A stretch of DNA of 37,615 bases, from the NCBI GenBank assembly GCA_020832285.1, contig JAFIFB010000051.1, forward strand, positions 1-37,615, read 5' to 3'. A program made the position numbers and the translations under genes. The notes below the pieces were generated by a model. It ran no database searches. It saw nothing but the letters and a program-made list of their open reading frames with translations, and was not told the origin of the DNA. This stretch comes from Balneolaceae bacterium (GTDB taxonomy: Bacteria; Bacteroidota; Rhodothermia; Balneolales; Balneolaceae). Shown piece after piece: positions 17,076 to 36,294 of this stretch (the first letter of the stretch is position 1; the number at the start of each line of letters is the position of its first letter).

Positions 17076-17527
17076 AGGAGTTGCTCTTGATTATTTTTTA
17101 ACGTTGATTGGTGTCTGATTGAAAGATTAACAAACAGAAAATGTGATCCATAAGACTACAAATACAAGTTCAATATATTGCAGAATTTGCCAACTAAAAA
17201 GCTACCGGCCGAAATCCGTAAATCATATAACAATATTCAGGATATGTGTAAGAAAGATGGACAAACAATAACAGGATAAGTTGAGATTAAATCAGGCAGA
17301 CTTAAGCCTGAAACTGGGAAATGTAATTCAAACTGTTCTATTGGATGCACATAGATTTGCAGAGAACTTCATTAATCAAGATAGAGATGAACCAATTACG
17401 CGAAAAAATTGAAATATAAAATCAAAAATGGCATGCTGATAATCTGTAAAACATGTAATTGTTGACGCACGGTATATAATCCCTTTCCAATTATTTTTGC
17501 CTATCTATCTATAAATACACTCGATTT
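17076..17527. other. Divergent intergenic region ahead of the PLP operon
   Basis: An AT-rich stretch of about 450 bp between the minus-strand Pmp3-like gene and the plus-strand PLP-enzyme operon. It must carry promoters in both directions. TTGACG (17462) and TATAAT (17475) occur, but only 7 bp apart, so they do not form a sigma-70 promoter. No gene is visible. Confidence 0.45.
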
Positions 17528-17585
17528 TAGCCCGGATTTCTCACCAAATAATACTTGTGAGATGTCCGGGTTAGTGATGCTAACC
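17528..17585 (+). promoter_or_regulatory. Structured leader with mutually exclusive hairpins
   Basis: CCCGGA (17531-17536) pairs with TCCGGG (17565-17570), with CTCAC (17540-17544) and GTGAG (17557-17561) as an inner stem. A second stem, GGTTAG (17569-17574) with CTAACC (17580-17585), overlaps the first by two bases, so both cannot form fully. The structure ends 20 bp before the purine-rich ribosome binding site of the operon. It shares ATTTCTCACCAA with the palindrome at 7574, so it may be a dispersed repeat rather than a purpose-built regulator. No riboswitch class is recognised. Confidence 0.5.
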
Positions 17586-17627
17586 GGGAGTATTGATTCG
17601 TACGGAGAGGAGGGAAGAGAGGATTGT

Positions 17628-17675
17628 ATGAGCATAGAAACAGGCAGGTATATCAAATTCAGACTACATCAATGA
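17628..17675 (+). CDS. 15-codon upstream ORF (possible leader peptide)
   Basis: An ATG at 17628 follows the strongest ribosome binding site of the region (GGAGAGGAGGGAAGAGAGG, 17605-17623). It encodes 15 residues, MSIETGRYIKFRLHQ, and ends TGA at 17673-17675, overlapping the ATG of the PLP synthase (ATGA). The first codons mirror the true start: ATGAGCATAGAAACAGG here and ATGAGAATAGAAACCGG at 17672, a 44-bp offset that is out of frame. This is either a partial tandem duplication of the gene start or a leader ORF for translational coupling. No Trp/His/Leu-type codon run suggests classical attenuation. Confidence 0.5.
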   Translation: MSIETGRYIKFRLHQ

Positions 17676-18751
17676 GAATAGAAACCGGACTTTTATCGAC
17701 GATTGGCAAAACTCCTCTGGTGCTGCTGAAAAAGCTATATCCGGGTTTATCATCGACGTTTTATGCAAAACTCGAAATGTTCAACCCGGGCGGAAGCAGC
17801 AAAGACAGGACGGCTTGGTTTATGCTGTCTAATGCAATGGATGAAGGAAAGCTCACTCAAAACAGTACAATTATTGAATCAAGTTCGGGCAATATGGCAA
17901 TAGGCCTCGCCCAGGTCTGCCGTTATCTGGGTTTACATCTTATCGTGGTAACGGATCCGAAAATTAATCGTCGAACACTCGACCTTCTGCGGGTGTATGG
18001 AACTCAGATCGAACGAGTTACAAAGGCCGATTCGAGTGGGAACTATCTGAATAACAGGCTGGAACGTGTCAGGCAGCTGCTTGATACTATATCGGACAGT
18101 TACTGGCCTAACCAATATTCAAATGAACTGAACCCCGCAGCCCATTATGAGACGATGAAGGAGATCGTAAACAGCTGCCCGGAACCACCCGATTACATCC
18201 TTGCTGCAACAAGCACATGCGGTACAATTATGGGATGTGCAAGGTATGTACGTGAACATCATCTGAAAACCAAAATTGTGGCTGTAGATGCGGTCGGGAG
18301 TGTAATCTTTGGGTCATCAAAATGCAGGCGGCTGATACCGGGGCACGGGGCAGGAAAAATATCGGATTTACTTGATGAAAGCTTTATAGACCATGTTCTT
18401 CATGTGTCTGATAAGGAGTGTGTGATCGGGTGCCGGCGATTACTGCAACGGGAAGCAATTCTGGCAGGAGGATCAGCCGGCGCTGTAGTAATGGCCGCAG
18501 AAAAACTACAGGCAATTATCCCGCATGATTCAAACTGTGTGATGATTTTTTCTGACAGTGGCGAGCGCTATCTGGAAACAATTTTCAATGATAAATGGGT
18601 TGAGAATCAATTTGACAGAATAGATGAGTCGGTCAAAAAGGAACCGGAAACATCAATAGAACCTGACATGACGCCAGTCTTGGTTAGTGGCCATGATCTC
18701 AGTATCGATCATTCTGCAGGTAAAAATGGGAGTACAAAAAACTATTCGTAA
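17672..18751 (+). CDS. SbnA-like PLP-dependent beta-synthase (cysteine synthase fold)
   Basis: A 359-aa fold-II PLP enzyme. It closely resembles SbnA of staphyloferrin B biosynthesis, which joins O-phosphoserine and glutamate to make N-(2-amino-2-carboxyethyl)-glutamate, the precursor of 2,3-diaminopropionate. Visible: the TIGKTPLV opening, the PLP lysine Lys44 in NPGGSSKDR, the substrate loop ESSSGNMAIGLA, a TSTCGTIMG phosphate loop, AVDAVGSVIFG and EAILAGGSAGAVV. It is longer than SbnA by an acidic tail that overlaps the next gene. Start at 17672 is based on homology; a TTG at 17624 in the same frame is nearer the ribosome binding site. First gene of a coupled three-gene operon. There is no SbnB-like dehydrogenase in the window, so the real substrate pair is open. 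Confidence 0.8.
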   Translation: MRIETGLLSTIGKTPLVLLKKLYPGLSSTFYAKLEMFNPGGSSKDRTAWFMLSNAMDEGKLTQNSTIIESSSGNMAIGLAQVCRYLGLHLIVVTDPKINRRTLDLLRVYGTQIERVTKADSSGNYLNNRLERVRQLLDTISDSYWPNQYSNELNPAAHYETMKEIVNSCPEPPDYILAATSTCGTIMGCARYVREHHLKTKIVAVDAVGSVIFGSSKCRRLIPGHGAGKISDLLDESFIDHVLHVSDKECVIGCRRLLQREAILAGGSAGAVVMAAEKLQAIIPHDSNCVMIFSDSGERYLETIFNDKWVENQFDRIDESVKKEPETSIEPDMTPVLVSGHDLSIDHSAGKNGSTKNYS

Positions 18752-20579
18752 AGTTGCCATCATAGGAGGAGGTCCGAAAGGGATCTATGCATTTGAGCGG
18801 CTGGCAGCCTGGTTTAAGGTCAAACCTCCGTCTGAAAGAACCGAAATTCATATTTTTAATCGATCGGATTCTTTTGGGGCCGGAGAAAACTACAGTATTG
18901 GACAACCAGCCTGGCTGCTTATCAATAACCCTGTTGGAGATGTTAATATGTGGGCTGAAGAGATGCCGCCGCCCGTGATTCCCCATCCACTTTCACTTAC
19001 CGAGTGGGTATGTCGAAATGAGAACCTGTACGTAACGGACTATGATTATATTTCCCGAGCTATGGTAGGCCGGTACCTCGTAAATGGATTTACCTTAATC
19101 GCATCAAATCTTCCGGAAAAAGTAGTTGGCAAATATATTGTCGGAGAAGTAACTGATATTTACATAGATTCAGGGAAATATACTCTCTGCATGAAATCAG
19201 GCGGGGATGAAAAAAAGCACCTGACAGATCTTTATGATCATGTGCTTCTGGCAACAGGCCATCCTAAAAACAGGGCAACGGAAGATCAGTTACGTTATCA
19301 ATCGTTTGCCGGTGAACCTCAAAGTGCAGGGTATATACCATTTGTCTATCCGGCTGAAAAAGTATTTAAAGATCTGCCACCGGGCTGCAGTGTTGGAATA
19401 AAAGGAATCGGCCTCACGTTTGTTGACGCGGTATTGGCACTGACCGAGGGAAAAGGAGGGCTTTTTCTGCGAAATGAGAAAACTGGAAAAATTGTGTATA
19501 CCCCTTCCGGTAATGAACCGAAGGTTATTTATCCATTCTCCCGAAGCGGACTGCCCATGCTACCGCGAAGATCCGTACCGGGCAAGAAAATAAGTCTGAA
19601 GTTTTTTACCAAGTCTGCAATACAGATGATGCAAAACGAAGGGAAAATAGATTTCAAGCAACAGCTATGGCCACTACTGAAACAGGAGATGATCTACGCT
19701 TATTATGATACCGTGATGAAGGAAGCAGAATTGCCGGAAGGTTTAGCAGGCTCTGTTGATATTGAGGACATTCAGCGAGCGGTTGCGAAGTACCATAAAA
19801 AGTATCCGGCAATGAGGCGTTTTGATCCCGAGACGTTTTTAGAACCATTACAGAAGAAGGATTCTTTTAATGACCAAACATTTCATCAGTATGTACAATC
19901 GCAGTATAATTTTTATTTGAAAGAAGCTCGAAAAGGAGAGTTGAAAAGCCCGCTGGCAGCCGTTACCGCAGTCTGGAGGAAAGCATCACCTTTATTTTGT
20001 GAGATCTACTCTTTTGGCGGCCTAACCCCGGAGTCACAAAGACATTTTGACCATTCATTTCGCGGAAAACTGAATCGCGTTACATTTGGTCCCCCGGTTG
20101 AAAGTGCTGAAAAAATAGCTGTATTAATGGAATCTGGTGTTTTGAATTTTGAAACAGCCAGGAATCCCAAACTGTCGCTGGATGAAAAAACCGGCTCGTT
20201 TATTCTTGAATCGGGACACAATTCCAACCGAAATTCTGTACAATACCTTGTGGATGCACGTATCCCCAGGATGTCTCTGACAAATGACCGCAGCTCCCTG
20301 TTCCGGAATCTGCTGGATCGGGAGTTGATCACAATATTCGAAAACAGGTCCGGTCAGGAGACGTATAAAACGGGAGCGGTCAACATCACACCGGGTGGGT
20401 TTGTAATTGATAGAGAAGGTAATGTGAATCCCGGCATAGCCGTGACAGGAACCCCCACTGAGGGAATCACTTTTGATAATGACACTCTTTCGAGGAACAG
20501 AAATAATTTTGTAGATAGCTGGGCCGAATATATAAGTAAAGAGTACGCTAAATCTGAAATAGAACACTATGCAAACTGA
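18726..20579 (+). CDS. FAD/NAD(P)-binding protein (NAD_binding_9-like), 617 aa
   Basis: A large flavoprotein opening with the dinucleotide motif VAIIGGGPKGIYAFERL (about residues 10-26) and FGAGENYS. A second nucleotide-site stretch is VLLATGHPKNR, the usual ATGH motif of the FAD-NAD(P)-binding family (PF13454), then GIKGIGLTFVDAVLALT. The C-terminus ends GIAVTGTPTEGITFDNDTL. It overlaps the SbnA-like gene by 26 bp (start at 18726) and the decarboxylase gene by 11 bp, so the three are translationally coupled. An oxidative step on the synthase product is the simplest role (inference); a monooxygenase is also possible. I know no characterised close homologue. Confidence 0.75.
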   Translation: MGVQKTIRKVAIIGGGPKGIYAFERLAAWFKVKPPSERTEIHIFNRSDSFGAGENYSIGQPAWLLINNPVGDVNMWAEEMPPPVIPHPLSLTEWVCRNENLYVTDYDYISRAMVGRYLVNGFTLIASNLPEKVVGKYIVGEVTDIYIDSGKYTLCMKSGGDEKKHLTDLYDHVLLATGHPKNRATEDQLRYQSFAGEPQSAGYIPFVYPAEKVFKDLPPGCSVGIKGIGLTFVDAVLALTEGKGGLFLRNEKTGKIVYTPSGNEPKVIYPFSRSGLPMLPRRSVPGKKISLKFFTKSAIQMMQNEGKIDFKQQLWPLLKQEMIYAYYDTVMKEAELPEGLAGSVDIEDIQRAVAKYHKKYPAMRRFDPETFLEPLQKKDSFNDQTFHQYVQSQYNFYLKEARKGELKSPLAAVTAVWRKASPLFCEIYSFGGLTPESQRHFDHSFRGKLNRVTFGPPVESAEKIAVLMESGVLNFETARNPKLSLDEKTGSFILESGHNSNRNSVQYLVDARIPRMSLTNDRSSLFRNLLDRELITIFENRSGQETYKTGAVNITPGGFVIDREGNVNPGIAVTGTPTEGITFDNDTLSRNRNNFVDSWAEYISKEYAKSEIEHYAN

Positions 20580-22050
20580 TCCTCTCTCACATCTTTATCC
20601 TCGGTTAACGGCGGTAACATCGCCATGGATGACTGAGCTATTTGATAACCATTCGTTACTGGATGATCTGTTCCGGGAATATGGTTCACCGATAAATATT
20701 CACCATGCTGGCCCGTTTGCGGAGAATTATGAAAGTTACAGATGTGTGCTTGAAAAGCACAGGTTGGACCATACAATATTCTTTGCCCGGAAAGCCAATA
20801 AATGCCGGATTTTTGTAAAAGAAGCGAAAAGACTCGGATTGGGAGTGGACACTGCAAGTTACCGCGAATTAAAAGAGTGCCTGGACCTGGGATGCGATCC
20901 CGATAAACTTGTACTTACTGCAGCGGTAAAAAATGAAATACTGGTGCGGCTTGCACTTCAGCACGGTGTTCTGATGGTTCTGGATAATGAAGATGAGTGT
21001 CGACTTGTTAACAGGATTGCTGAGGAGCTCGGCATAGTCTCAAAAATTGGTATTCGCATCAGCGGTTTTTTGCACAATGGGGAAAAACTGTACAGCCGTT
21101 TTGGTTTTGATGTAGATTATGTTGCTGAATTTATCACTTCTCAACTGGAAAGCGGCAATCATTTTGGGAACCTTAGGTTTAGCGGATTTCATTTTCATTT
21201 GAATAGTTACTCCATACAAGAACGGGCTGATGCAATTATACAAACCATCTATCTGTCGGATATGCTTAGGAAAAAAGGAATATCAACCAAATTCATCGAT
21301 TTAGGAGGCGGATTGTTGATGAATTATCTGGCTGATAGAGAGGACTGGGAAACTTTCCGGGCAGAGTTGAAAAAAGCGGTTATGGGTGAGCGGAACCCGA
21401 TTACATTTGGGAACAACGGACTTGGGTATGAATTGATTAACGGCAGCTTGCATGGTGAAACTGACGTATATCCATACTACAATGAAACGCCAAAAGAGCA
21501 ATTTCTGGAAGCTGTCTTAATAAATAAAACTGAAAATGGCTCCACGCCGGCCGGGATGTTGCGTGAACGGAATATAGAGCTGAGGATGGAGCCGGGACGA
21601 TCGCTGCTGGATCAGACTGGAATGACTATGGCAAGAGTCATCCACAGAAAGAAAGATCAGAGAGGCGACTGGCTCGTAGGTCTTGAGATGAACCGAAGTC
21701 AGTTAATGAGTTCCAGCGCGGACTATCTGCTTGACCCAATCCTAATTCCAATGCAGAAATCAGCGGTTGATTCAATTCCGGCTGCGGTCTATTTTACAGG
21801 CGGCTACTGTCTTGAGCAGGATTTGATCTTAAAACGCAAAATTACTCTGCCACACCTGCCATATATTGGTGATATAATCTGCTTTCCCAACACAGCCGGA
21901 TATATGATGCATTTCTATGAAACACAATCTCATCTCTATGATTTCACAACTAATTTGGTGATAAATGAAGATTCAGAGGAGATGTCAATCAAACGCGATG
22001 AGTTATATAAGTTTAATAAGTTTCCCCTAAAAAGGGGAGTACGGCATTAG
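20569..22050 (+). CDS. Fold-III PLP-dependent decarboxylase-like protein (Y4yA-like)
   Basis: A 493-aa protein of the diaminopimelate/ornithine decarboxylase group (alanine-racemase fold). The PLP lysine is Lys75 in FFARKANKC, which replaces the usual YAVKAN. Other matches are DTASYREL, GGGLLMNYL, the arginine/phosphate region EPGRSLLDQTG, GGYCLEQD (the dimer-shared Cys) and NTAGYMMHF. Sequence and length recall the Rhizobium 'Y4yA' family, which is a memory-based assignment. SbnH in the staphyloferrin B pathway is a decarboxylase of the same fold, so the trio looks like synthase-oxidase-decarboxylase. It starts inside the FAD gene (11-bp overlap). The C-terminal residues FPLKRGVRH come from a dispersed AAAAAGGGGAG repeat that runs through the stop codon. 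Confidence 0.78.
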   Translation: MQTDPLSHLYPRLTAVTSPWMTELFDNHSLLDDLFREYGSPINIHHAGPFAENYESYRCVLEKHRLDHTIFFARKANKCRIFVKEAKRLGLGVDTASYRELKECLDLGCDPDKLVLTAAVKNEILVRLALQHGVLMVLDNEDECRLVNRIAEELGIVSKIGIRISGFLHNGEKLYSRFGFDVDYVAEFITSQLESGNHFGNLRFSGFHFHLNSYSIQERADAIIQTIYLSDMLRKKGISTKFIDLGGGLLMNYLADREDWETFRAELKKAVMGERNPITFGNNGLGYELINGSLHGETDVYPYYNETPKEQFLEAVLINKTENGSTPAGMLRERNIELRMEPGRSLLDQTGMTMARVIHRKKDQRGDWLVGLEMNRSQLMSSSADYLLDPILIPMQKSAVDSIPAAVYFTGGYCLEQDLILKRKITLPHLPYIGDIICFPNTAGYMMHFYETQSHLYDFTTNLVINEDSEEMSIKRDELYKFNKFPLKRGVRH

Positions 22051-22133: not shown

Positions 22134-23060
22134 ATGAACATTCCATCTATAGCAGTTCACGGAGGATCAGGAACTATAGCTTCATCGATTGAGGATCCGA
22201 TAATCAAAAAAAACTATCTGGATGCTTTACAAGATGCGCTGGAGGCCGGTTTCAGTATATTAAATAATGATGGCACAGCTCTGGAGTCCGTAACGAAAGC
22301 GGTGACTGTTCTTGAGGATTGTGATCTTTTTAATGCCGGAAAAGGTTCCGTATTTACTTCTAAAGGGGACCATGAAATGGATGCGGCTGTTATGGATGGC
22401 AAAAACCTGAATGCGGGCGCCGTTGCAGGGATTAAAGGAATAAAAAACCCGGTATTGTTAGCTGAAGATATCATGAAGAACACTCCATTTGTTTTTTTGG
22501 CAGGCAACGAAGCGATGGAGTATGCGCGTCGTCAGGAGTATGAAATTTTGCCTGACTCCTATTTTTTTACACAGCTTCGATACGACCAGTGGACCATCTT
22601 GCGGGACTCCGGAGAAGTAAAGCTGGATCACTCTTCCGGAAATGATTTCAAGTTTGGCACGGTAGGGGCTGTGGCGGTCGACAGTGAAGGCAATCTGGCT
22701 GCGGCAACTTCAACCGGGGGTATGACGAATAAAGCCTGGGGCCGGGTTGGAGACAGCCCGTTGATTGGCGCCGGTACGTATGCTAACAATAAAACGTGTG
22801 CAATATCGTGCACAGGCCACGGGGAATTCTTTATACTCGGAGTAGTGGCCTATGACGTTTCATGCCTGATGGAATATGCTGGGATGAGTCTTGAAGAAGC
22901 CACCAATGAAGCAATATTTATACGACTAAAAAAGTTGGGCGGAGAGGGGGGACTTATTGCGGTTGATGCACAGGGCAATATTAGCTTACCTTTCAACACG
23001 GAAGGCATGTACCGCGGAATGAAGAATAACCGGCAGACTTTGATTGAAATCATGCACTAA
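22134..23060 (+). CDS. iaaA: Isoaspartyl peptidase / plant-type L-asparaginase
   Basis: A 308-aa Ntn-hydrolase that is made as a proenzyme and cuts itself before the catalytic threonine. Here this is Thr176 in the FKFGTVGAVAVD stretch, with the following STGGMTNKAWGRVGDSPLIGAG substrate-binding region intact. The N-terminal half has IAVHGGSG and NAGKGSVFT, both family signatures. Members hydrolyse beta-aspartyl dipeptides and L-asparagine. In cyanophycin users this enzyme class cleaves the beta-Asp-Arg dipeptides released by cyanophycinase. With the cyanophycinase and synthetase genes within 9 kb, that is the likely role (inference). No strong Shine-Dalgarno is seen. Confidence 0.88.
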   Translation: MNIPSIAVHGGSGTIASSIEDPIIKKNYLDALQDALEAGFSILNNDGTALESVTKAVTVLEDCDLFNAGKGSVFTSKGDHEMDAAVMDGKNLNAGAVAGIKGIKNPVLLAEDIMKNTPFVFLAGNEAMEYARRQEYEILPDSYFFTQLRYDQWTILRDSGEVKLDHSSGNDFKFGTVGAVAVDSEGNLAAATSTGGMTNKAWGRVGDSPLIGAGTYANNKTCAISCTGHGEFFILGVVAYDVSCLMEYAGMSLEEATNEAIFIRLKKLGGEGGLIAVDAQGNISLPFNTEGMYRGMKNNRQTLIEIMH

Positions 23061-25408: not shown

Positions 25409-26287
25409 TCAGGTTGTAAGTACTTTCTGATAATTTTGCGGGTTAAAATATATTTCAGATTTTTTCTCCCTGATATAATATTTGTCTTTTGGAGCAAGAA
25501 TATGAACTCTTAAATTAGCGAGTGATATTGGTATATGTTTTTTCAAATATTGTGATTGGTTATACTCGAGTTCACTTCCATCAAACAGAATTACCATTCC
25601 CGTACCGATAATTTCACACACATTTCCTTCTGTTATAATTATGCCGGTATCTTCACCAAGGCCAATTCCTAATTTATCCGGGAAAATCGCAACGGCTTCA
25701 GCGAGTCGCCCAAAACGGGCACGATGAATAAAATGGCTGTCAATAATTGCCTCTTTCAACAATCCGAGGCCTTTTCCCATTTTAAGGTCATTTCTTTTTA
25801 GTACATTCCCGTTTCTGCCCCCTGTAATCATCTCATCGGACATTACCATGGCTCCTGCGCTGGTACCCGCTATAACGAACCTGTCATTGTAATAGCGATC
25901 GCGTAACAGTTCGTGTGATCTGGTATCTTTAAACACTTTGCTGATTTTACTTTGATTCCCCCCGGAAAACAGTACAGCATCTGCATCTGCGATTACTTTT
26001 AGAGCTTCCGGGCTGTTTGCCACTTCTCGTTCGCGAATATCTAAAATACCTATATTTTTTACTCCTAATTTTCTGAACGTCTCCATGTATTGCCGTCCTA
26101 CTTCAACCGGAATATCAGATGCGGTTGTAATGACTTCTATACGGCTTTCCGGACCTCCGGCAAGCTTTTTGACGTCGTGAAGAATAACTCCTTCCCCAAA
26201 ATCAGTTTGAAGTTTTTCATCCAAATTTTTGAAGTTTTTTTTCTCATTACCGCCAATTGCTATTAAAGTACCTTTGGGTTTAATCAT
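25409..26287 (-). CDS. cphB: Cyanophycinase
   Basis: A 292-aa serine exopeptidase of the S51 family that degrades cyanophycin, a multi-L-arginyl-poly-L-aspartate storage polymer, to beta-Asp-Arg dipeptides. The nucleophile elbow is GTSAGAM with Ser143. Other family features are the N-terminal GTLIAIGGNEKK, LFSGGNQSKI, SDEMITGG, HFIHRARFGRLAEA and GIGLGEDTGII. The full length matches typical intracellular CphB, and no signal peptide is present. It is divergent from the cyanophycin synthetase gene across 614 bp, a common arrangement for cph loci. A weak ribosome binding site precedes ATG at 26287. Confidence 0.93.
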   Translation of the reverse strand: MIKPKGTLIAIGGNEKKNFKNLDEKLQTDFGEGVILHDVKKLAGGPESRIEVITTASDIPVEVGRQYMETFRKLGVKNIGILDIREREVANSPEALKVIADADAVLFSGGNQSKISKVFKDTRSHELLRDRYYNDRFVIAGTSAGAMVMSDEMITGGRNGNVLKRNDLKMGKGLGLLKEAIIDSHFIHRARFGRLAEAVAIFPDKLGIGLGEDTGIIITEGNVCEIIGTGMVILFDGSELEYNQSQYLKKHIPISLANLRVHILAPKDKYYIREKKSEIYFNPQNYQKVLTT

Positions 26288-26901
26288 ATTGAAGATTTAC
26301 GCACTGTTAAATATTAAATTTCAGCCAAGTTATTATATAATGTCTATTCATCTTCATTAAAGCTGAGCCGAAGTTTTCTTCCTGTAATAATTATGTTTAA
26401 AAATTATGGGAATTGAGCTATTTAACTAATTTTCTGAAGGTTTTGAATTACCGTCAGTAATTGCAGGAAATACTATTGAGCAATAATTAAATGAGTAAAT
26501 TTACCCTCATAAATTGATAAAGACCAACCACTTTTCATAACTCTTGAAGTAGTTGGTTTAAAAATTGTTTCCATATAGTGAATGTACTGCAAAAGATCGC
26601 CAAGTATGTTATGTTTTAAATTTTATAATTTGGGCTGTAATTTCCGTACTACTTTTTTGCGGTAACTACAGTAACGATCTATTATATATATAAAACTTTT
26701 AAAGATAAATATAACAGTCTGATGCTGCCTATATACATATTTTATCTTGTAAAAAAAGATTCACAATACTACCATAAAGTCAATTTTCTTTAAAATTTAA
26801 TTGTCTGGTCAAGATTTTTGTTCCAAGAACCTTTCTAATTGATTGATACTGTAGAATTAAGAAAATTTAGATTAAAGAGAGCTAGAAAAGAGACGATACT
26901 T
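26288..26901. promoter_or_regulatory. Divergent cphB-cphA intergenic region
   Basis: 614 bp, very AT-rich, that must hold promoters for both cyanophycin genes. An imperfect palindrome, ACCAACCACTT (26523-26533) with AAGTAGTTGGT (26547-26557; one mismatch), lies near its middle and could be an operator or a terminator-type hairpin. I see no arginine-repressor (ARG box) or NtcA-like site that I would defend. The ORF extension upstream of 26902 (to 26839) is not conserved in cyanophycin synthetases. Confidence 0.5.
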
Positions 26902-27354
26902 ATGAAAATTTTAAACATTAAGGTAACCAACGGCCCTAACTTATGGTCTGTCAATAAAAAACGGCTTGTGGTTATGGAACTCGATATAGAAGATTTGGAA
27001 ACAAAGCCCACCAATGAGATTGATGGCTTTTACCAACGAATAAAAAAAGCGATCCCAAGTCTGCAGGATCATTATTGTTCAGAAGGAGTGCCTGGAGGTT
27101 TTTTCAACCGGGTTGAACGTGGCACCTGGATGGGCCATGTAATAGAACACATCGCCATTGAATTACAGGTACTGGCAGGTCTGGAGGTTGGTTTTGGCAA
27201 GGCGCGCGGCACCGGAGTAAAAGGGCACTATAATATAGTCTTTGAATGCGTTGATGCCGAATCGGGAGAGCTTGCTGCAGAAAAAGCTGTATTGATCGCC
27301 AAAAATTTGTATCCACCCGACCAACTACATGTATCAGATAATAAATTAAGGTGA
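26902..27354 (+). pseudogene. cphA: Cyanophycin synthetase, 5' fragment (interrupted by IS66)
   Basis: The first 135 codons and part of the 136th encode the N-terminal domain of cyanophycin synthetase: MKILNIKVTNGPNLWSVNKK opens exactly as CphA does, followed by GGFFNRVERGTWMGHVIEHI and GVKGHYNIVFECVDAESGELA. The start at 26902 (preceded by AAAGAGACG) is taken from this family pattern. At 27308/27309 an IS66-family element begins; translation then runs through 15 element-derived codons to a stop at 27352-27354. Joining base 27308 to 29688 restores the frame into the 3' part, giving 895 residues, a typical CphA length. Nothing else in the gene is broken. Confidence 0.9.
27301..27308. repeat. 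Target-site duplication, left copy (AAAAATTT)
   Basis: The eight bases directly before the left end of the IS66 element are AAAAATTT, identical to 29680-29687 directly after the right end. Eight base pairs is the duplication length known for IS66-family elements. Deleting the element with one copy restores the reading frame of cphA. Confidence 0.93.
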
Positions 27355-27374
27355 TAGTTTGCTTGTCAAAAACG

Positions 27375-27668
27375 ATGACAGCAAAAACAAAGACCGAGAC
27401 CATGTTTGCTCTGGTGGATAAATGGAAGTCCTCCGAAGCTACTCAAAAACAGTTTTGCGCCGAGCATGAGGTGAAAGTTGGCACCTTTGCCTACTGGGTT
27501 GCCAAACATAAACGAGCTGGCTCCAGTGATCCCGCTGGAGGGTTCGTAGACGTAGATATTTTCGGGTCGGCAGACTCAGCCGCGGTGCGTATTACCTATC
27601 CCAATGGCGTTGTGGTTAGCTGCCAGGCAGAACCGGCCCTGATCGGCCGGCTTATCCACCTCGCATAA
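27375..27668 (+). CDS. tnpA: IS66 family accessory protein TnpA
   Basis: A 97-aa protein with a helix-turn-helix-type beginning (MFALVDKWKSSEATQKQFCAEHEVKVGTFAYWVAKHK), typical of IS66 TnpA (IS3/IS911-like HTH). The C-terminal half is AVRITYPNGVVVSCQAEPALIGRLIHLA, a beta-strand tail usual for this protein. The start at 27375 fits the family; the open frame extends to 27351. Its stop TAA overlaps the ATG of tnpB as TAATG. It is needed with TnpB for IS66 transposition, though its exact role is not settled. Confidence 0.88.
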   Translation: MTAKTKTETMFALVDKWKSSEATQKQFCAEHEVKVGTFAYWVAKHKRAGSSDPAGGFVDVDIFGSADSAAVRITYPNGVVVSCQAEPALIGRLIHLA

Positions 27669-28009
27669 TGTTCTCGCTGAGTTCCTCCCACCGCTACCAC
27701 CTCTACCGCGGGGCCTGCGATATGCGCAAAAGCTTCAATGGGCTATCTGGGTTGGTGCGTTCAGAGCTGGGCCGTGATCCGGCCAGCGGAGAGGTGTTCG
27801 TATTTCTCAACCGCCGCCGCACGCTGATGAAGCTGCTTCATTGGGAAGCGGGCGGATATGTTCTGTACTATAAACGACTCGAAGAAGGCACCTTCACACC
27901 ACCCACCGGGCAGGGTAGGCAAACGGTGGTTCGATGGCCGGAGCTGGTGCTTATGGTCGAGGGAATCCAGGTGCAGGCCTCGCGGCAAACCCGACGGTAC
28001 CAGCGATAA
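27668..28009 (+). CDS. tnpB: IS66 family protein TnpB (Orf2)
   Basis: A 113-aa protein with the diagnostic IS66 Orf2 stretch: YHLYRGACDMRKSFNGLSGLV, then FVFLNRRRTLMKLLHWEAGGYVLYYKRLEEGTF. These motifs are nearly invariant in the family. It starts within the stop codon of tnpA (TAATG), so translational coupling is expected. It ends 72 bp before tnpC. Its biochemical role is not established, but deletions in other IS66 elements abolish transposition. Confidence 0.93.
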   Translation: MFSLSSSHRYHLYRGACDMRKSFNGLSGLVRSELGRDPASGEVFVFLNRRRTLMKLLHWEAGGYVLYYKRLEEGTFTPPTGQGRQTVVRWPELVLMVEGIQVQASRQTRRYQR

Positions 28010-28081
28010 AAAAAGTGTCTTATTTTGGTTAAAATGTTCCATTCAAGTAGTTAATAACGTTGGTTATGCGTATATTCACTC

Positions 28082-29650
28082 ATGTTAACAGACCTGCATA
28101 TCCTTACCAAATCCGAGCTGATTGAACGGCTTTCTGCCGAGCAAAAAACGGCCCAATCTCACTTGGAACAGGTAGCTGACTTGCAGAAAAAACTGGCTCA
28201 CAAGGAGCAAACCCTTGAGCGTAAACTGGCCCGAAAAGATCAGATTATTGCCCAGCTTCAGCGGATGCTCTTCGGGCAGAAGCGCGAGCGCTTTGCCGGT
28301 GACCCTGCACAGGGAAGCCTTCCCTTTGAGCAGGAGCCCCTGTCCGAACAAGAGCACGAGCAGCACCACCAGAAGACCATTACCTATGTACGCAAAAAGC
28401 AGTCCCGGCCCAACCACAAAGGCCGCCTGCCGCTGCCGGATCACCTGCCGGTTGAGGAAATTGAGATTTATCCCCAGGGAGACCTCTCGCAGATGGTTTG
28501 TATTGGCAAAGAAGTGACCGAGGAGCTGGAAATGACCCCGGCCCGTTTTTACATCAAGCGGTATATTCGCTATAAATACGCGGCGAAGGACTTCCGCAGC
28601 GATGGGGTTCACATCGGTGAGCTTCCCGAGCGCGTGATCGACAAGGGAATCCCCGGAGCGGGCCTGCTGGCTGGGATTCTGGTGGACAAATACGTGGATC
28701 ACCTGCCGCTGTACCGCCAGCGCCAACGATTTTTGCGGGAAAACATCCCCATCGCTCAAACGACTCTTGACGGCTGGGCAGCTCAGGCGATGGATCGCCT
28801 GGAGATTCTCTACAACCACCTGCTTGATCAAACCAAAGCCCGCGGATATCTTCAGGTGGATGAATCACGCATTAAGGTGTTGGAATCCCCCAAAAAGGGG
28901 GCGTGCCACCAGGGGTGGTACTGGGTGTACCATAGCCCGATCGAAAAGACGGTGCTCTTTGATTACCATCCGACCCGCGGGGCGCCTGCTCCCAAACGGA
29001 TCTTGGATGAGTTTACCGGTTATCTGCAGAGCGATGGATATAGCGTTTACGAGGAGATTGGCCGCCGTAAAGACGTGGTGCATCTGGGGTGCTGGGCGCA
29101 TGCCCGCCGGGAGTTTGAACGCGCCCTGGAGAATGACCGCGAGCGGGCAGAGAAGGCGATGAACTGGATACAGGATCTATATGCAGTGGAGCGGCAGGCC
29201 CGCGATAAAGGGCTTTGCCCACAGGGGCGTAAAGAACTGCGCCTGGCCCGTTCGTTGCCCATCATCAACGAGCTGGGCGGGTGGATCAAAAGCCAGATTG
29301 CTCAGGTACTGCCCAAAAGCCAGATTGGTAAGGCGATGGCCTACTCGGCCAAGCGGTGGGACGCTCTCAGCGGCTATCTGTATGATGGGGTCCTGGAGAT
29401 TGATAACAACCTTGTCGAGAATACGATCCGCCCGCTGGCCCTGGGCCGCAAAAACTACCTGTTTACCGGATCGCACAAAGGTGCCCAACGAGCTGCCATG
29501 GTGTACTCTTTGCTGGGAACCTGTAAACTGCACGGCGTGAACCCCACACAGTGGCTCACCCACGTGCTGGCCAACATCCTGCAAACCAAATACAACGACG
29601 TGCCGTCATTATATCCCCAAAACTTCACTGATAAGCAATCCGTCGGGTAA
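28082..29650 (+). CDS. tnpC: IS66 family transposase TnpC
   Basis: A 522-aa DDE transposase. N-terminal coiled-coil (about residues 12-65) with leucine/lysine heptads is followed by a zinc-finger-like/HTH region and the catalytic core. The DDE residues are visible in YLQVDESRIKVLE (first Asp), YLQSDGYSVYEEI (second Asp) and EIDNNLVENTIRPLALGRKN (Glu). CWAHARREFERA lies between the second Asp and the Glu, as usual. It is intact and full length. No Shine-Dalgarno is visible upstream. Confidence 0.95.
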   Translation: MLTDLHILTKSELIERLSAEQKTAQSHLEQVADLQKKLAHKEQTLERKLARKDQIIAQLQRMLFGQKRERFAGDPAQGSLPFEQEPLSEQEHEQHHQKTITYVRKKQSRPNHKGRLPLPDHLPVEEIEIYPQGDLSQMVCIGKEVTEELEMTPARFYIKRYIRYKYAAKDFRSDGVHIGELPERVIDKGIPGAGLLAGILVDKYVDHLPLYRQRQRFLRENIPIAQTTLDGWAAQAMDRLEILYNHLLDQTKARGYLQVDESRIKVLESPKKGACHQGWYWVYHSPIEKTVLFDYHPTRGAPAPKRILDEFTGYLQSDGYSVYEEIGRRKDVVHLGCWAHARREFERALENDRERAEKAMNWIQDLYAVERQARDKGLCPQGRKELRLARSLPIINELGGWIKSQIAQVLPKSQIGKAMAYSAKRWDALSGYLYDGVLEIDNNLVENTIRPLALGRKNYLFTGSHKGAQRAAMVYSLLGTCKLHGVNPTQWLTHVLANILQTKYNDVPSLYPQNFTDKQSVG

Positions 29651-29754: not shown

Positions 29755-31968
29755 ATGCCCGGTCCAAGTACAGCTTCTTTGTTGCGGGAAGCCGCCTCAC
29801 GAGACATTCCGTATATCCAACTTGAAGACAGATCAACCTATCAGTTGGGCTATGGCTGTTTTCAAAAGAAAATTGCTGCTACCGTAACATCATCAACAAG
29901 CAACCTGGCAGTGGAAATGGCTTGTGATAAAGAAGCCTGTAGTGACTTCCTGAAAGAGATTTCAATACCCGTTGCCGAAGGGGAAGTAGTAGAGAGTGTT
30001 GATGAGCTTCAGTTGTCTTTGAAATCTTTAGGCTATCCCTTGGTTATAAAACCGGTTTCAGGCAATCAGGGGCGTGGAGTAACAACCAACATTAAAACCT
30101 GGGAAGAAGCAGCAGCAGCATTTGAATTAGCCATTGAAATTTCTGAGAGAGTCATTGTTGAACGCCATGTTTCCGGTTTGGATTATCGTTTGCTTACAAT
30201 TGGCGGTAAATTTGTTGCCGCAGCAAAGAGAACTCCTGCACACGTTAAGGGAGATGGTACTTCAACTATACAACAGTTGATAGACAGTGTAAATGATGAT
30301 TCAGGACGTGGTGAAAACCATGATAATATCCTCACCAAAATAAAAATCGGGCCCAGCGCAAAAACCATTCTCTTACAGAAAGGCTATACACTTAATACTG
30401 TGTTACCAAAAAATAAAATTCTCTATTTAGATTATGCAGCAAATCTTAGTAAAGGCGGTACTGCAGAAGATGTAACCGATGATGTGCATCCTGAAATTGC
30501 GATGATGGCCGCCAGAATTGGCAGGATGGTTGGTCTTGATATTTGTGGAATAGATGTAATGGCTTCTACACTGAAAAAGCCATTGAGTGAAACAGGGGGA
30601 ATCGTTCTTGAAGTGAATGCCGCACCGGGGTTTCGGATGCACTTGTCTCCATCGAAAGGGACGCCCCGGAATGTTGCAGCTCCAGTGCTGGATATGCTTT
30701 TTCCCCCAGGGCAAAAAAGTCGAATACCTATCATCGCGGTGACGGGCACAAATGGAAAAACCACCACCACACGCCTTATATCTCATATTATGAAAGGTGC
30801 AGGACGAAGGGTTGGGTACACAACAACGGATGGGGTCTATGTAAATGATGAACTCATCATGAAGGGGGATTGTGGCGGCCCTGTAAGCGCTCGAATGGTG
30901 CTCAAAGATCCGGGTGTGGATACAGCGGTTCTGGAGTGTGCGCGTGGCGGAATATTACGGATGGGACTCGGCTTCGATTATTGTGATGTGGCTGTGGTAA
31001 CGAATGTAAGCTCCGATCACCTGGGAATGAAGGGAATAAATAACCTGGACCAAATGACCAGCCTGAAATCTGTGGTGCCTGAAAGTGTACACCCATCAGG
31101 TTTTGCCGTACTGAATGCAGATGATGAACGTGTATATTCCATGCGGAAAAAAGTTCGCTGCAATGTGGTTCTGTTTTCACTTGAGTCAGATAATCCGGGA
31201 ATTATGTCACATCGCGAAGCGGGTGGTATTTGCGTGGTGCTTAAAAATAACGGTATCACTATTTGGGATGGAGAATCAGAACATATGGTAGAACAAGTAG
31301 AAAAAATTCCGCTCAGCTTTAATGGTCAGGCTGGTTTTATGATTGAAAATATAATGGCTGCGGCAGGAGCGGCTTATACCCAAAATATTTCCCCTGCAAA
31401 AATAGGTGAAATGCTGCGCATTTTCGTGCCTTCACCAGAGAAAACTCCGGGCAGGATGAATCTTTTTAAATTTACAAACTATGATCTGCTTGTAGATTAT
31501 GCTCATAATCCCGCCGGCTTGATGGCCATCCAAAATTATCTGAAAAACTTTTCTTATCATTATAAAATAGGAATTGTGGGTGGCATGGGTGACCGGAGAG
31601 ATGAGGACAGTATGGAATTAGGCCGGATTGCCGCAGAAATGTTTGATAAAGTTATTATAAGAGAAGATAGAGATCTCAGAGGTAAAGCAGCAGGGGAAAT
31701 CACTGAAATTATAAAAAAAGGCATTGCTTATTCCTCTCATAACCCGAAAGTAGTAGCTATTGCAAACGAAAAACAGGCATTGCTTTATGCCATGGAATAT
31801 GTTTTGCCAGGTACTTTAATAATGCATTGTATAGAGGATATTGAAGGGGTCATCCCTATGATCCAAAAAATGGAAAGGGAACAGCCGTATATCAGGCGAA
31901 AACATCTAAAACACTCTGTGCAAAGTACCCAAAATGGGAGTAGACTTCCCGTAGGGATAAATATTTAA
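29755..31968 (+). CDS. cphA: Cyanophycin synthetase, 3' fragment (ATP-grasp and Mur ligase domains)
   Basis: The remainder of cyanophycin synthetase, which polymerises Asp and Arg onto a primer with ATP. The cphA frame is open from 29688, and the first ATG in it is at 29755 (MPGPSTASLL), giving 737 aa. It holds the ATP-grasp domain (YQLGYGCFQKKI, VIKPVSGNQGRGV, VIVERHVSGLDYRLL, GIDVMAST, VLEVNAAPGFRMHLSP) and the Mur-ligase-like domain with P-loop TGTNGKTTTT (Gly489-Lys493 in restored numbering), ECARGGILRMGLGF, and LLVDYAHNPAGL. A separate product would lack the N-terminal domain, so activity is doubtful. The frame is otherwise clean. It may be transcribed from within the co-directional IS66 element. 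It ends 151 bp before a strong terminator. Confidence 0.9.
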   Translation: MPGPSTASLLREAASRDIPYIQLEDRSTYQLGYGCFQKKIAATVTSSTSNLAVEMACDKEACSDFLKEISIPVAEGEVVESVDELQLSLKSLGYPLVIKPVSGNQGRGVTTNIKTWEEAAAAFELAIEISERVIVERHVSGLDYRLLTIGGKFVAAAKRTPAHVKGDGTSTIQQLIDSVNDDSGRGENHDNILTKIKIGPSAKTILLQKGYTLNTVLPKNKILYLDYAANLSKGGTAEDVTDDVHPEIAMMAARIGRMVGLDICGIDVMASTLKKPLSETGGIVLEVNAAPGFRMHLSPSKGTPRNVAAPVLDMLFPPGQKSRIPIIAVTGTNGKTTTTRLISHIMKGAGRRVGYTTTDGVYVNDELIMKGDCGGPVSARMVLKDPGVDTAVLECARGGILRMGLGFDYCDVAVVTNVSSDHLGMKGINNLDQMTSLKSVVPESVHPSGFAVLNADDERVYSMRKKVRCNVVLFSLESDNPGIMSHREAGGICVVLKNNGITIWDGESEHMVEQVEKIPLSFNGQAGFMIENIMAAAGAAYTQNISPAKIGEMLRIFVPSPEKTPGRMNLFKFTNYDLLVDYAHNPAGLMAIQNYLKNFSYHYKIGIVGGMGDRRDEDSMELGRIAAEMFDKVIIREDRDLRGKAAGEITEIIKKGIAYSSHNPKVVAIANEKQALLYAMEYVLPGTLIMHCIEDIEGVIPMIQKMEREQPYIRRKHLKHSVQSTQNGSRLPVGINI

Positions 31969-32856: not shown

Positions 32857-35800
32857 CTATGATTGATTTAACAATGGAATATAAATATCAAATGTAGTCC
32901 CTTTGTTTAAGGTGCTTTTTACTTCTATGACACCATTATGATGGTTTACAACTTTTTTCACGGTTGCCAGCCCGATTCCCGTACCGGGATAATTGTCTTT
33001 GTTATGAAGTCGCTGAAATACCTCAAATATTTTCTCATTGAACTTCTCTTCAAAACCAATGCCGTTGTCAGACACAGAAATATGGCAATACTTCTTATCT
33101 TGCACAAGGTTTTTAACTTTAAATGCAGCGCCTTTTTCAATCCTGCTTTTGATCTTAATATGAGGCTTTACTCCCGGTTTCGAAAATTTAAGCGCATTGC
33201 TGATAAGATTATGTGCCAGTTGCCTGAACTGGAAAACAATTACATCTGCCTCACACATTGTTTCCATTTCAACAGTGGCTTGTTTTTCTTCTATGATTTC
33301 ATTGAAGCTGGCAATAACATTTTCAAAAATAGTGCCAAGATTCACTCTTTCAAATACTCGCTCAGTGGTGTTAAGGCGCGAAAAATCGAGCAGGTCACCA
33401 ATTAATTTCTGCATTCGCTGCGCAGCGTTTTGCATCAGATTGAAATAGGTTTTGCCCTTTTCTGAAAGGTTTTGGTATTCTTTTTCGAGTATACGGCCGG
33501 CAAAGGTCTGTATTTTCCGGAGCGGTTCCTGCAAATCGTGGCTGGAAATGTAGGTAAATGCTTCCAGCTCTTTATTCATGCTTAGCAATTCCTGGTTTAT
33601 CTCCCGGAGTTCTTCATTTGCGCTCTTTAATTCGGCCGTGCGTTCTTCTATCTTCTCTTCAAGTTCTTTGGTATGCCGTTCCTGAATTCTCCGGTTTTTC
33701 TCTTTCTCTTTTACCTGTTCGGTAATATCCTCGATGGAGAGAAGAATTAGATTTTCTGATTTATCTTCATTCACTACTTCACGTGCATTCATCAGTAAAT
33801 GCAGCTTGCCAATCCCCGAAAATTTCCGGATGACTTCGTAATCGTGTACAATTGATTTTTCAGGAATAATTTCTTCAAGCAACTTTCTTAATTCTGGAAA
33901 TTCCCACTTCTTGCCTTCCAGGTCGTAAATCAGTGTGCCAACTGTTTTCTTTTCATTTATTTTAAACTGTTTGTAGAATGCATTATTTGCCGCTCTTATC
34001 TTCAGATTTTTATCCAGTGCAAGCAGTGGTTCGCGAATATTTGCAACAATAGATTGAGAATAATTCCTTTCAATCTCTATCTGTTCGTTTAAGCTGCTCA
34101 TTTCCTGGTTCAGAACAATAAGCTCTTCGTTGGTGCTTTGCAGCTCTTCCTTGCTCGTTTCTAATTCTTCATTTAATGTTTGCAGCTCTTCACTGCCACT
34201 CATCAACTCTTCGTTGGCACTTTGAAGCTCTTCGATGACAACTTCCTGGTCTTCCGTAATGTTCCGCATATCTTCTCTTGTGTCAACAAGTTCTTTTTCT
34301 AATTGCTCTATGCGAAGGTCTTTTTCGTTTACTGATGGCTTGGCTGTTTCTCCATCATCAGTATTAGATTTTGGCGTATCAATCTTTGCAGAGGTATCAT
34401 GAAAAAGTACTAAATAATAGGGCTCTATGGTATTTGGAAGCGGAATGGCTTCGATGGAAATAGTACGAAGGTCCCCGTTTATTTTAACCGGAATATTCTC
34501 TTTTTTTACTTCATTATTCTCCTGTTTCGCTTTAAAAAGAATATTCCGCAGTTCAAAAGCCAAACCCTGCACAGCCAATACCATCAGATTGTGGCTCGGT
34601 TTTCCTGATGTTTGCTCTAAATATGGGCCGGTTTTGCCGCGATATTGTACAATATCCATCGCCTCGTTCACCACTACACCGGCAGGGGTGTACTTTTTGA
34701 TTACAATCTCATCTGCTGTTTTCTGGAATTCAGGATTTTTCTTTATTGGTTTTGTGCTTACTTCCGATTGGTTAAAATCGAGTTCCGATCTCCGGTTAAT
34801 CACCTGCATGAATTTACTGGAAACATCTTTTCGCGAATATATTTTTTCGCTTTTGGCAACTTCAGCAAAAAGGTCGGGCACACCGCTGGTAGTTTCCGAT
34901 TTACCAAGCAATAACAGACCTTCCGGATTCATCACATAATGAAAAGTAGTGAGCGCTTTTTTCTGTAAATAGGGTTCAAAATAGATGAGCACATTCCGGC
35001 AGCTTATAAAGTCCATTTTGCCAAATGGAGGGTCTTTTAAAAAATTATGAACGGCAAACACGCACATATCCCGGATCTGCCTGTTAACCTGAAAACGCCC
35101 ATTCGTTTTTGTAAAGAATCTCTTCAGCCGTTTCTCGGATACTCCGGCTACTTCAGCCTCTGAATATCTGCCCAGGCGCGCTTTTTCGATAGCGGTTTCA
35201 TTCAAATCAGATGCAAAAATCTGAATTTGTTTTTCGTGATTTTTCGGAGTTTGGGTGTCAAAAAGTTCTTTAAATAAAATAGCCAGAGAGTAGGCTTCCT
35301 CCCCTGTGCTGCAGCCTGCCACCCACACCCGAATGGTTTTACCGGCAGGAATTTCTTTTATAATTTGAGGTAAATAGATAGATGATAATTTTTCAAAAAT
35401 ATTAGGATCTCGGAAAAAAGATGTGACCGGGATTAAGATATCCTGGTACAGAATATCCTGTTCTTTTTTGTTCTCTCTTAAATATTCAAGATATGCGGTT
35501 ACTTTTTTATTTTTGTTGATTGCCATTCTCCGAAGTATTCTCCTGCGGATGGTGGTCTGTTTGTAATAGGTGAAATCTGTACCATTTCGCACTCGCAGAA
35601 GGGCGACTATCTGCCTGAAAACGTCATCGTCATTCAAAGACTGAGGTTTCTCTAAGGCTGCCGGGGTGTTAATAATCTGAGTGACTTCGAGTAGTTTAGC
35701 GGGAATTTTATCAGGCGAAAGAACAAAATCAACCATACCCGACTGTATTGCACTATTGGGCATGCCGCTATAGCCTGCTGATTTTGTATCCTGTGCAAAG

Positions 35801-36294
35801 GTGATACCTCCGTAATCTTTAATCGCTTTCAAGCCTTTGGTGCCATCCGACGCTGTACCCGACAGTACCACACCAATGGCATGGGATTCGTAAGTTTCAG
35901 CCAGCGCTGAGAAGAAAAGATTGATGGGATGAACAACTTCATTTCTGTTTCTTTCGGGCAGAGGAGCAAGTTCCAGTTCACCATCGGATGCCACCATTAT
36001 TTTATTGCTGGGCATCACATAAATATGATTGGGTTCAATGACAGTTTTGTCTGAAAACTCATTAACGGAGATGTTAGTAACATTTTGGAGAATGTCTGGT
36101 AACTGGCTTTCGTGGGTTGAATCTAAATGCTGTACAAGAATAAACCCCATGCCTGAATCTTCCGGAATGGCTTTGAGCAATGCTTTAAAAGCCGCTAACC
36201 CCCCGGCCGACGCACCAATACCAACAACCGGAAAAAGTTTCTCTGTTTTAACTCTTTTTTTTTTCTGATCAGTGGATTTTTTATCTGACTTCAC
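32857..36294 (-). CDS. CheB-CheR-PAS hybrid sensor histidine kinase (1145 aa)
   Basis: Domains in order: a lysine-rich N-terminus; a CheB methylesterase (about residues 20-205) with the full catalytic triad Ser29 (GIGASAGG), His56 (QHLDSTHES) and Asp150 (SGTASDGT); a CheR methyltransferase (about 225-490) with FFRDPNIF, the SAM motif VAGCSTGEEAYSLAI and NVLIYF; a glutamate-rich coiled coil (about 655-755); a PAS-like domain (about 760-880); a second coiled coil; HisKA with His919 in SSHDLQEP; and HATPase with NLISNALKFS, DNGIGF and GTGIGLATVKKVV. There is no receiver and no transmembrane segment. It probably senses a cytosolic or coupled signal and phosphorylates the flanking regulators. The CheB/CheR parts could modify a receptor, but no chemoreceptor is encoded here. 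Confidence 0.95.
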   Translation of the reverse strand: MKSDKKSTDQKKKRVKTEKLFPVVGIGASAGGLAAFKALLKAIPEDSGMGFILVQHLDSTHESQLPDILQNVTNISVNEFSDKTVIEPNHIYVMPSNKIMVASDGELELAPLPERNRNEVVHPINLFFSALAETYESHAIGVVLSGTASDGTKGLKAIKDYGGITFAQDTKSAGYSGMPNSAIQSGMVDFVLSPDKIPAKLLEVTQIINTPAALEKPQSLNDDDVFRQIVALLRVRNGTDFTYYKQTTIRRRILRRMAINKNKKVTAYLEYLRENKKEQDILYQDILIPVTSFFRDPNIFEKLSSIYLPQIIKEIPAGKTIRVWVAGCSTGEEAYSLAILFKELFDTQTPKNHEKQIQIFASDLNETAIEKARLGRYSEAEVAGVSEKRLKRFFTKTNGRFQVNRQIRDMCVFAVHNFLKDPPFGKMDFISCRNVLIYFEPYLQKKALTTFHYVMNPEGLLLLGKSETTSGVPDLFAEVAKSEKIYSRKDVSSKFMQVINRRSELDFNQSEVSTKPIKKNPEFQKTADEIVIKKYTPAGVVVNEAMDIVQYRGKTGPYLEQTSGKPSHNLMVLAVQGLAFELRNILFKAKQENNEVKKENIPVKINGDLRTISIEAIPLPNTIEPYYLVLFHDTSAKIDTPKSNTDDGETAKPSVNEKDLRIEQLEKELVDTREDMRNITEDQEVVIEELQSANEELMSGSEELQTLNEELETSKEELQSTNEELIVLNQEMSSLNEQIEIERNYSQSIVANIREPLLALDKNLKIRAANNAFYKQFKINEKKTVGTLIYDLEGKKWEFPELRKLLEEIIPEKSIVHDYEVIRKFSGIGKLHLLMNAREVVNEDKSENLILLSIEDITEQVKEKEKNRRIQERHTKELEEKIEERTAELKSANEELREINQELLSMNKELEAFTYISSHDLQEPLRKIQTFAGRILEKEYQNLSEKGKTYFNLMQNAAQRMQKLIGDLLDFSRLNTTERVFERVNLGTIFENVIASFNEIIEEKQATVEMETMCEADVIVFQFRQLAHNLISNALKFSKPGVKPHIKIKSRIEKGAAFKVKNLVQDKKYCHISVSDNGIGFEEKFNEKIFEVFQRLHNKDNYPGTGIGLATVKKVVNHHNGVIEVKSTLNKGTTFDIYIPLLNQS

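Follow-up and report, generated by a model that had tools for sequence, protein, structure and literature searches.

A rare three-gene unit coding for an SbnA-type synthase, an FzmM-fold flavoprotein and a fold-III decarboxylase in a Balneolaceae bacterium: linkage, enzyme families and a proposed pathway

The three-gene locus and its distribution

Three coupled genes, coding for a pyridoxal 5'-phosphate (PLP)-dependent beta-synthase, a flavoprotein and a PLP-dependent decarboxylase, are located on the forward strand of contig JAFIFB010000051.1 (C51) in the 5.33-Mb genome of a Balneolaceae bacterium (GCA_020832285.1). The whole stretch of 37,615 bases analysed is here called the window, and the three genes the trio:

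17624..18751, + strand: SbnA-type PLP beta-synthase, predicted N-(2-amino-2-carboxyethyl)-L-glutamate (ACEGA) synthase (TIGR03945, active-site residues)
18726..20579, + strand: FzmM-fold flavoprotein, predicted to be an N-oxygenase that uses NADPH and O2 and has a changed substrate pocket (PF13454, AlphaFold2 (AF2) model)
20569..22050, + strand: fold-III PLP decarboxylase, 'Y4yA family' (PF02784)

The synthase and flavoprotein genes overlap by 26 bp and the flavoprotein (stop at 20579) and decarboxylase genes by 11 bp, as described in a first-pass annotation made from the sequence alone, and both coordinates and codons were confirmed when the starts and stops were rechecked. The synthase reading frame (17624-18751) opens with a TTG codon and contains an in-frame ATG at 17672, equivalent to the position at which the nearest synthase relative (locus L037) starts, and the ATG appears the likelier start of the two. 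The flavoprotein frame is open from 18687, with the ATG at 18726 yielding the 26-bp overlap.

An alignment of nine decarboxylases served as query for a scan of a species-level collection (one genome per species), in which 221 decarboxylase relatives were found and 80 were kept; all locus counts given here cover these 80. The flavoprotein is encoded by the next same-strand gene to the decarboxylase in all 80 loci, while the synthase is adjacent to or fused with the flavoprotein in 78, the flavoprotein being at a contig edge in the other two. As the same three-gene order recurs in 78/80 loci and both exceptions lie at contig edges, the linkage of the trio is beyond chance, and the rare co-occurrence that, according to the first-pass annotation, would have spoken against a unit is not seen among the loci kept. 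A single open frame of 933-957 codons fuses the synthase and flavoprotein in six loci, found in Gracilimonas (L050) and in Mesonia, Salegentibacter and Zunongwangia (L097, L102, L103, L105 and L110), and three of the fusions were included in the flavoprotein tree, where they occupy two distinct regions. Going by the record titles, 77 of the 80 loci presumably belong to Bacteroidota, with one Chloroflexi, one Kiritimatiellaeota and one Opitutales record among the 80 also carrying the trio, which is in addition found on plasmids of Sulfitobacter (L007) and Tsukamurella (L008).

Across the phylum, 394 evenly sampled genomes were surveyed (G404 and G321 were taken as the same contigs as loci L058 and L050, respectively). 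The decarboxylase (E <= 1e-30) is present in ten of these, including seven with the full trio, one with fragments (G011) and two without the flavoprotein (G100 and G146). Matches to SbnA above the curated cut-off are confined to the same seven full-trio genomes. Eleven more genomes contain SbnA matches below the cut-off (E <= 1e-80), and the two of these loci that were examined (L183 and L184) are without a flavoprotein or decarboxylase of the trio kind. The abundance of sbnA/sbnB in Bacteroidetes gene clusters described in PMC9248904 is seen in this sample only as these 11 matches. The flavoprotein (E <= 1e-15) is encoded in 11 of the 394 genomes, namely the seven full-trio genomes, G011 and the trio-less G059, G413 and G155. 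In the genus to which the window belongs, the window genome carries it and G011 a fragment of it, and searches of 26 further genomes were negative; the scanned viral contigs likewise contain no match to it. The three-gene unit is rare and patchy, yet tightly held together.

Enzyme families of the trio

The synthase scores 415.5 bits against the SbnA model TIGR03945, for which the curated cut-off is 349.95, and falls below the cut-offs of the listed cysteine-synthase and cystathionine beta-synthase models. Its closest solved chains are those of Staphylococcus aureus SbnA (5d84-5d87, best E 2e-84), and the SbnA residues K47, S75, R132, Q151, Y152 and S185 are all present in the window synthase. 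Each is kept in 85 of 86 trio rows, a count that, like those of 88 rows below, includes one duplicate (L040 and L058, identical); the exception at each position is a gap or, at Ser185, a glycine. Arg132, Tyr152 and Ser185 select O-phosphoserine in S. aureus SbnA, according to PMC12414870. With the O-phosphoserine-selecting residues intact and no ordinary cysteine-synthase site found, the SbnA-type assignment made in the first-pass annotation holds. The likeness to SbnA of staphyloferrin B (TIGR03945; PDB 5D84-5D87) encompasses the family cut-off, the PLP lysine, the serine loop and the Arg132/Tyr152/Ser185 set. In contrast to the staphyloferrin B system, the trio synthase is coupled or fused to a flavoprotein, and the trio genomes searched contain neither SbnB above its cut-off (0 of 10 genomes, seven of them with the full trio) nor the IucA/IucC-type nonribosomal peptide synthetase-independent siderophore (NIS) synthetases (0 of the 7 full-trio genomes at E <= 0.001), in agreement with the absences noted at first.

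The flavoprotein matches PF13454 with 89.7 bits (cut-off 21.8), as first proposed, and its sole sequence relative in the PDB at E <= 0.001 is FzmM (8cp2/8cp5, E 6e-40). An AF2 model built from 26 sequences (mean predicted local distance difference test score, pLDDT, 89.7) superposes on 8cp5 over its whole length with a Z score of 37.5 (573 aligned residues, root-mean-square deviation 2.7), whereas the best structural match outside FzmM reaches a Z of 19.8, and Foldseek likewise ranks FzmM first. The model has the three-domain fold of FzmM, including the helical substrate domain. The motif GxGLT..D of the second dinucleotide site is formed by invariant columns in the 26-sequence alignment, and NADPH use is therefore argued. 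FzmM carries out successive NADPH- and O2-dependent hydroxylations of the aspartate amine, and the replacement of its Asn413 by Glu alone abolished aspartate hydroxylation (PMC10404684).

FzmM Asn62 is conserved in all 88 trio flavoproteins, the Arg266 position is occupied by Arg in 78 and by Lys in 10, and Arg409 is kept in 65. Arg13 is replaced by Lys in 84 of the 88, Arg412 is kept in none, Asn413 in three and Arg416 in two. The aspartate entry chamber of FzmM consists of Arg13, Arg276, Asn413, Arg416 and Arg577, and at the first four, which were compared, the window protein has Lys, Ile, Pro and Cys, although the Arg276 column aligns poorly. In a tree with one row per genus label, a clade with support 100/99 unites the trio flavoproteins of the 80 loci and is separate from the FzmM side (100/98). 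Since the FzmM fold and Asn62 are retained without most of the aspartate-pocket residues, the flavoprotein is probably an N-oxygenase for a substrate other than aspartate, most simply the product of the SbnA-type synthase. The role first proposed, that of a general oxidation step, is in this way sharpened by the model to an amino-acid N-hydroxylase fold with a changed substrate pocket. Compared with FzmM (PDB 8CP2/8CP5), the trio flavoprotein shares the whole three-domain fold, both dinucleotide sites and the catalytic Asn62, but has Arg13, Arg412, Asn413 and Arg416 replaced, belongs to a separate clade and has different gene neighbours. CreE is another L-aspartate N-hydroxylase besides FzmM.

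Several relatives of the flavoprotein occur in other settings. On a Deefgea piscis plasmid (L017:3373-7894), sbnA, sbnB, an FzmM-side flavoprotein in which the Asn413 position is Asp, and thrH are encoded in a row, which is a candidate diaminopropionate N-oxygenation set. It resembles the trio in that a flavoprotein gene of this fold family lies a short way behind an SbnA-type gene, but it includes SbnB and no decarboxylase, and its flavoprotein, in which Arg13, Arg412 and Arg416 are retained, belongs with FzmM in the tree. A Parageobacillus plasmid (L014:5986-10234) codes for an FzmM-like flavoprotein, also grouping with FzmM, together with a major facilitator superfamily (MFS) transporter and a nitronate monooxygenase, and looks like a set for 3-nitropropionate production and self-protection. 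The flavoprotein gene of G049 also adjoins a nitronate monooxygenase gene, named by eye from its sequence.

The decarboxylase scores 94.4 bits against PF02784 (cut-off 23.4), in line with the initial fold-III assignment, and 111.7 bits against the lysA model TIGR01048, well short of the cut-off of 297.9. Its best solved relatives are the diaminopimelate and D-ornithine/D-lysine decarboxylases, and the same families match its structural model, which is of moderate quality (pLDDT 79.3, weak C-terminal third) and served for the fold only. Lys75, His208, His210, Gly246-248 (GGG), Glu341, Gly343, Arg344, Cys414 and Tyr445 are invariant in 88/88 trio rows and Pro342 is kept in 87, the PLP lysine, the GGG and EPGR motifs and the second-subunit Cys/Tyr presumably having the roles usual for the fold. 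The name 'Y4yA family', which the first-pass annotation had also used, is that given by RefSeq to the five closest plasmid relatives; it is an annotation of relatives, with no curated model so named among those listed. Catalytic residues and fold are shared with the diaminopimelate, D-ornithine/D-lysine and N-citrylornithine decarboxylases and with y4yA of pNGR234a, but identity to the solved fold-III decarboxylases listed is 15-20%, and Met374, Asn375 and Gln378 of the trio decarboxylase are not common to NGR234 Y4yA.

The role of Y4yA is called enigmatic or unknown in PMC3973906 and PMC4881576, the former, a review, applying the term enigmatic to the genes of the pNGR234a y4yA region. In this region (L009:7968-14585), which lies in a type III secretion region, genes for Y4yA, an SbnA-like protein, an opine-dehydrogenase-like protein, IucA/IucC and an MFS transporter are found in one run, which looks like an NIS-type small-molecule cluster.

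Genomic neighbourhood

The following features were identified in the remainder of the window, with the Asparaginase_2, cyanophycinase and cyanophycin synthetase entries treated as neighbours of the trio:

17527..17574, no strand: hairpin 5' of the synthase gene, dispersed repeat (folding and copies in the genome)
22134..23060, + strand: Asparaginase_2 of the isoaspartyl-peptidase type (PF01112)
25409-26287, - strand: cyanophycinase (TIGR02069, 226 bits, cut-off 126.6)
26839-27354 and 29755-31968, + strand: split cyanophycin synthetase (PF18921, Mur ligase and ATP-grasp domains)
32857-36294: CheB/CheR-PAS histidine kinase (named by eye) and single-domain response regulators

The hairpin, within which the start of the feature as first annotated (17528) falls, is not exceptional in its folding among its shuffled versions (z -1.77, with 14 of 200 shuffles folding equally well) and has four further partial copies elsewhere in the genome. 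A regulatory RNA at this position was set aside in favour of a dispersed repeat, and the hairpin is not counted with the operon. Searches of the window returned nothing in Rfam at gathering thresholds and no tRNA.

Downstream of the trio, the Asparaginase_2 gene is followed by Ldh_2 and Gfo/Idh/MocA oxidoreductase genes and then by the cyanophycinase and the cyanophycin synthetase, which is cut by an IS66 insertion (27351-29650, IS66 transposase) while the adjoining cyanophycinase is intact. Unsplit relatives of the synthetase are present in other genomes of the family. Asparaginase_2 also adjoins cyanophycin genes in G011 and G253; in G253 the same neighbour genes occur upstream of the trio in another order, with the synthetase approximately 10 kb off, and in G011 the cyanophycin genes precede the flavoprotein fragment. 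In a Myroides metagenome-assembled genome (MAG) of another lineage (L126:393-11395), Asparaginase_2, cyanophycinase and cyanophycin synthetase genes are located upstream of the trio. The synthetase is encoded in 47 of the 394 genomes and the trio only in G000, G253 and, as fragments, G011 among these; because 44 of the 47 synthetase genomes are without the trio, the synthetase is not considered part of the unit.

Genes recurring near the trio were compared as 75 neighbour clusters, with families named from one exemplar each. On the trio side, 38 genus labels taken from record titles were each counted once, six of them being higher-rank MAG labels (Chloroflexi, Saprospiraceae, Kiritimatiellaeota, Opitutales, Cyclobacteriaceae and Cytophagales). 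The controls were 40 randomly chosen loci of 20 kb, drawn from nine genomes and counted as loci and not as genera. DUF421 membrane proteins are encoded near the trio for 13/38 labels versus 0/40 random loci (p 2.5e-5, corrected ~0.002), as are large KatE-type catalases for 10/38 versus 0/40 (p 3.8e-4, corrected ~0.03). Topoisomerase IB (7/38, p 0.005), DUF2383 (5/38, p 0.02), Ku (4/38, p 0.05) and LigD (2/38, p 0.2), all versus 0/40, fail correction. DUF421 proteins are presumably stress-related, and the enrichment of their genes and of catalase genes nearby suggests a role of the trio in stress survival. No constant fourth gene was found across the 80 loci by neighbour clustering, and receptors of the SusC-like type, identified by eye, show no enrichment (5/38 versus 4/40).

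Proposed pathway and alternatives

The trio may be tentatively read as a self-contained three-enzyme pathway of condensation, N-oxygenation and decarboxylation, the product of which is probably kept in the cell for use under stress. In the first and best supported step, the synthase is predicted from its sequence to join O-phospho-L-serine and L-glutamate into ACEGA. In the second, the flavoprotein would oxygenate a nitrogen of ACEGA with NADPH and O2; because gene order and the fusions suggest that it acts right after the synthase, the secondary amine would be its natural and simplest target. The resulting hydroxylamine or nitrone could break down to alpha-ketoglutarate and N3-hydroxy-diaminopropionate, with nitrone hydrolysis freeing the alpha-ketoglutarate and so performing the work of SbnB in its place. 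The free alpha-amine required by PLP decarboxylases is present in the diaminopropionate half of ACEGA, and it is from this half that the third enzyme would remove the carboxyl group. The route would end in a 1,2-diamine or aminoethyl-glutamate, N-oxygenated or, if the N-O bond is lost, plain; this compound would probably stay intracellular for use under stress instead of being exported as a siderophore. The order of condensation, oxidation and decarboxylation is that first proposed; the fusions make it likelier that the first two steps are consecutive, and the order as such stays conjectural. The reactions are inferred from the observed family assignments, residues and gene linkage.

A number of observations weigh against this proposal. 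The fold of the flavoprotein gives its family and not its substrate, and the altered pocket is no proof for ACEGA. Loss of Asn413 alone is no mark of the trio, as seen in eight other FzmM-like proteins that were aligned, in which Arg412 is present in 8/8, Asn413 is replaced in 7/8 and Arg416 is absent in 2/8, so that Arg412 and Arg13 are the better sequence markers. The Sulfitobacter and Tsukamurella plasmid flavoproteins lie outside both clades on long branches, the flavoprotein of G059 falls inside the trio clade with neither synthase nor decarboxylase beside it, and G011 carries flavoprotein and decarboxylase fragments on two contigs with no SbnA upstream. Matches to the SbnB model below its cut-off occur in six of the ten genomes searched (best 102.8 versus 326.9 bits), and it is possible that an unrecognised SbnB substitute is encoded elsewhere. 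With respect to a stress role, the controls were counted by locus, and none of the 21 markers derived from the window's own genes passes correction, the best being the CheB/CheR-PAS kinase (11/38 versus 2/40, p 0.005 uncorrected).

The flavoprotein could alternatively oxidise ACEGA to an imine, substituting for SbnB, with the diaminopropionate so formed being decarboxylated to ethylenediamine without any N-O bond. This plain diamine route, which appears unlikely, fits the missing SbnB and the free alpha-amine needed by the decarboxylase, and pNGR234a pairs Y4yA and an SbnA-like protein with an opine-dehydrogenase-like protein that could play the same part, but the trio flavoprotein retains an N-hydroxylase's catalytic Asn and second dinucleotide site, which would be needless in a simple amine dehydrogenase. 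Still less probable is nitro or nitrite chemistry, in which the flavoprotein would turn an amino acid such as aspartate or diaminopropionate into a nitrosuccinate-like nitroso or nitro compound and the other two enzymes would serve a side branch. The product of the closest solved relative is nitrosuccinate, from which 3-nitropropionate arises by decay (PMC10404684), and related flavoproteins are encoded beside nitronate monooxygenase genes in Parageobacillus and G049, the latter named by eye, or behind sbnA-sbnB in Deefgea. These proteins, however, belong to the other clade and keep the Arg412 that is lost in 88/88 trio proteins, and no gene is constant beside the trio. The Asn413 to Glu replacement that abolishes aspartate hydroxylation in FzmM counts against nitro chemistry in that 85/88 trio proteins are without Asn413, although so are most of the FzmM-side relatives aligned.

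That the trio contributes to a siderophore or other metallophore by providing a ligand of the diaminopropionate or hydroxylamine type, a metallophore being among the products suggested in the first-pass annotation, is quite improbable. SbnA is part of staphyloferrin B synthesis and the pNGR234a run joins Y4yA and an SbnA-like protein to IucA/IucC and an MFS transporter, whereas IucA/IucC is missing from all seven full-trio genomes, homologues scoring above 50 bits to single SbnB, opine-dehydrogenase-like and IucA/IucC queries occur in 0 of the 80 loci, and neither a constant fourth gene nor an enrichment of SusC-like receptors accompanies the trio. A function in modifying, or supplying amines for, the products of the adjoining cyanophycin genes is the most improbable of these explanations. 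Proximity of cyanophycin and trio genes is seen in the window, G011 and G253 and also, differently arranged, in the Myroides MAG. Within a flank of at most 10 kb, however, cyanophycin genes are found in only one of the 80 loci, five of the seven full-trio genomes have no synthetase match, 44 of the 47 synthetase genomes are without the trio, and IS66 has disrupted the synthetase of the window, where the trio is left intact.

Returning to the three-step pathway of condensation, N-oxygenation and decarboxylation, a more specific version of it is possible though rather doubtful, in which a new branch of the FzmM family oxygenates ACEGA, the decarboxylase completes the route and the product is an intracellular hydroxylamine or nitrone diamine, possibly a radical-trapping protectant and not a siderophore. 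The trio is a novel combination of known enzyme families, and the literature searched on Y4yA, SbnA/SbnB, y4xP/y4xN and the aspartate and diaminopropionate N-hydroxylases contains no description of the three-gene unit. At least 78 records of the one-genome-per-species collection carry the whole unit, from 221 with a decarboxylase relative. If the proposed pathway is correct, the SbnA family would have a role outside siderophores and antibiotics, the aspartate N-hydroxylase family would be extended to a new substrate, and the trio would provide a short three-enzyme route to N-oxygenated diamines.

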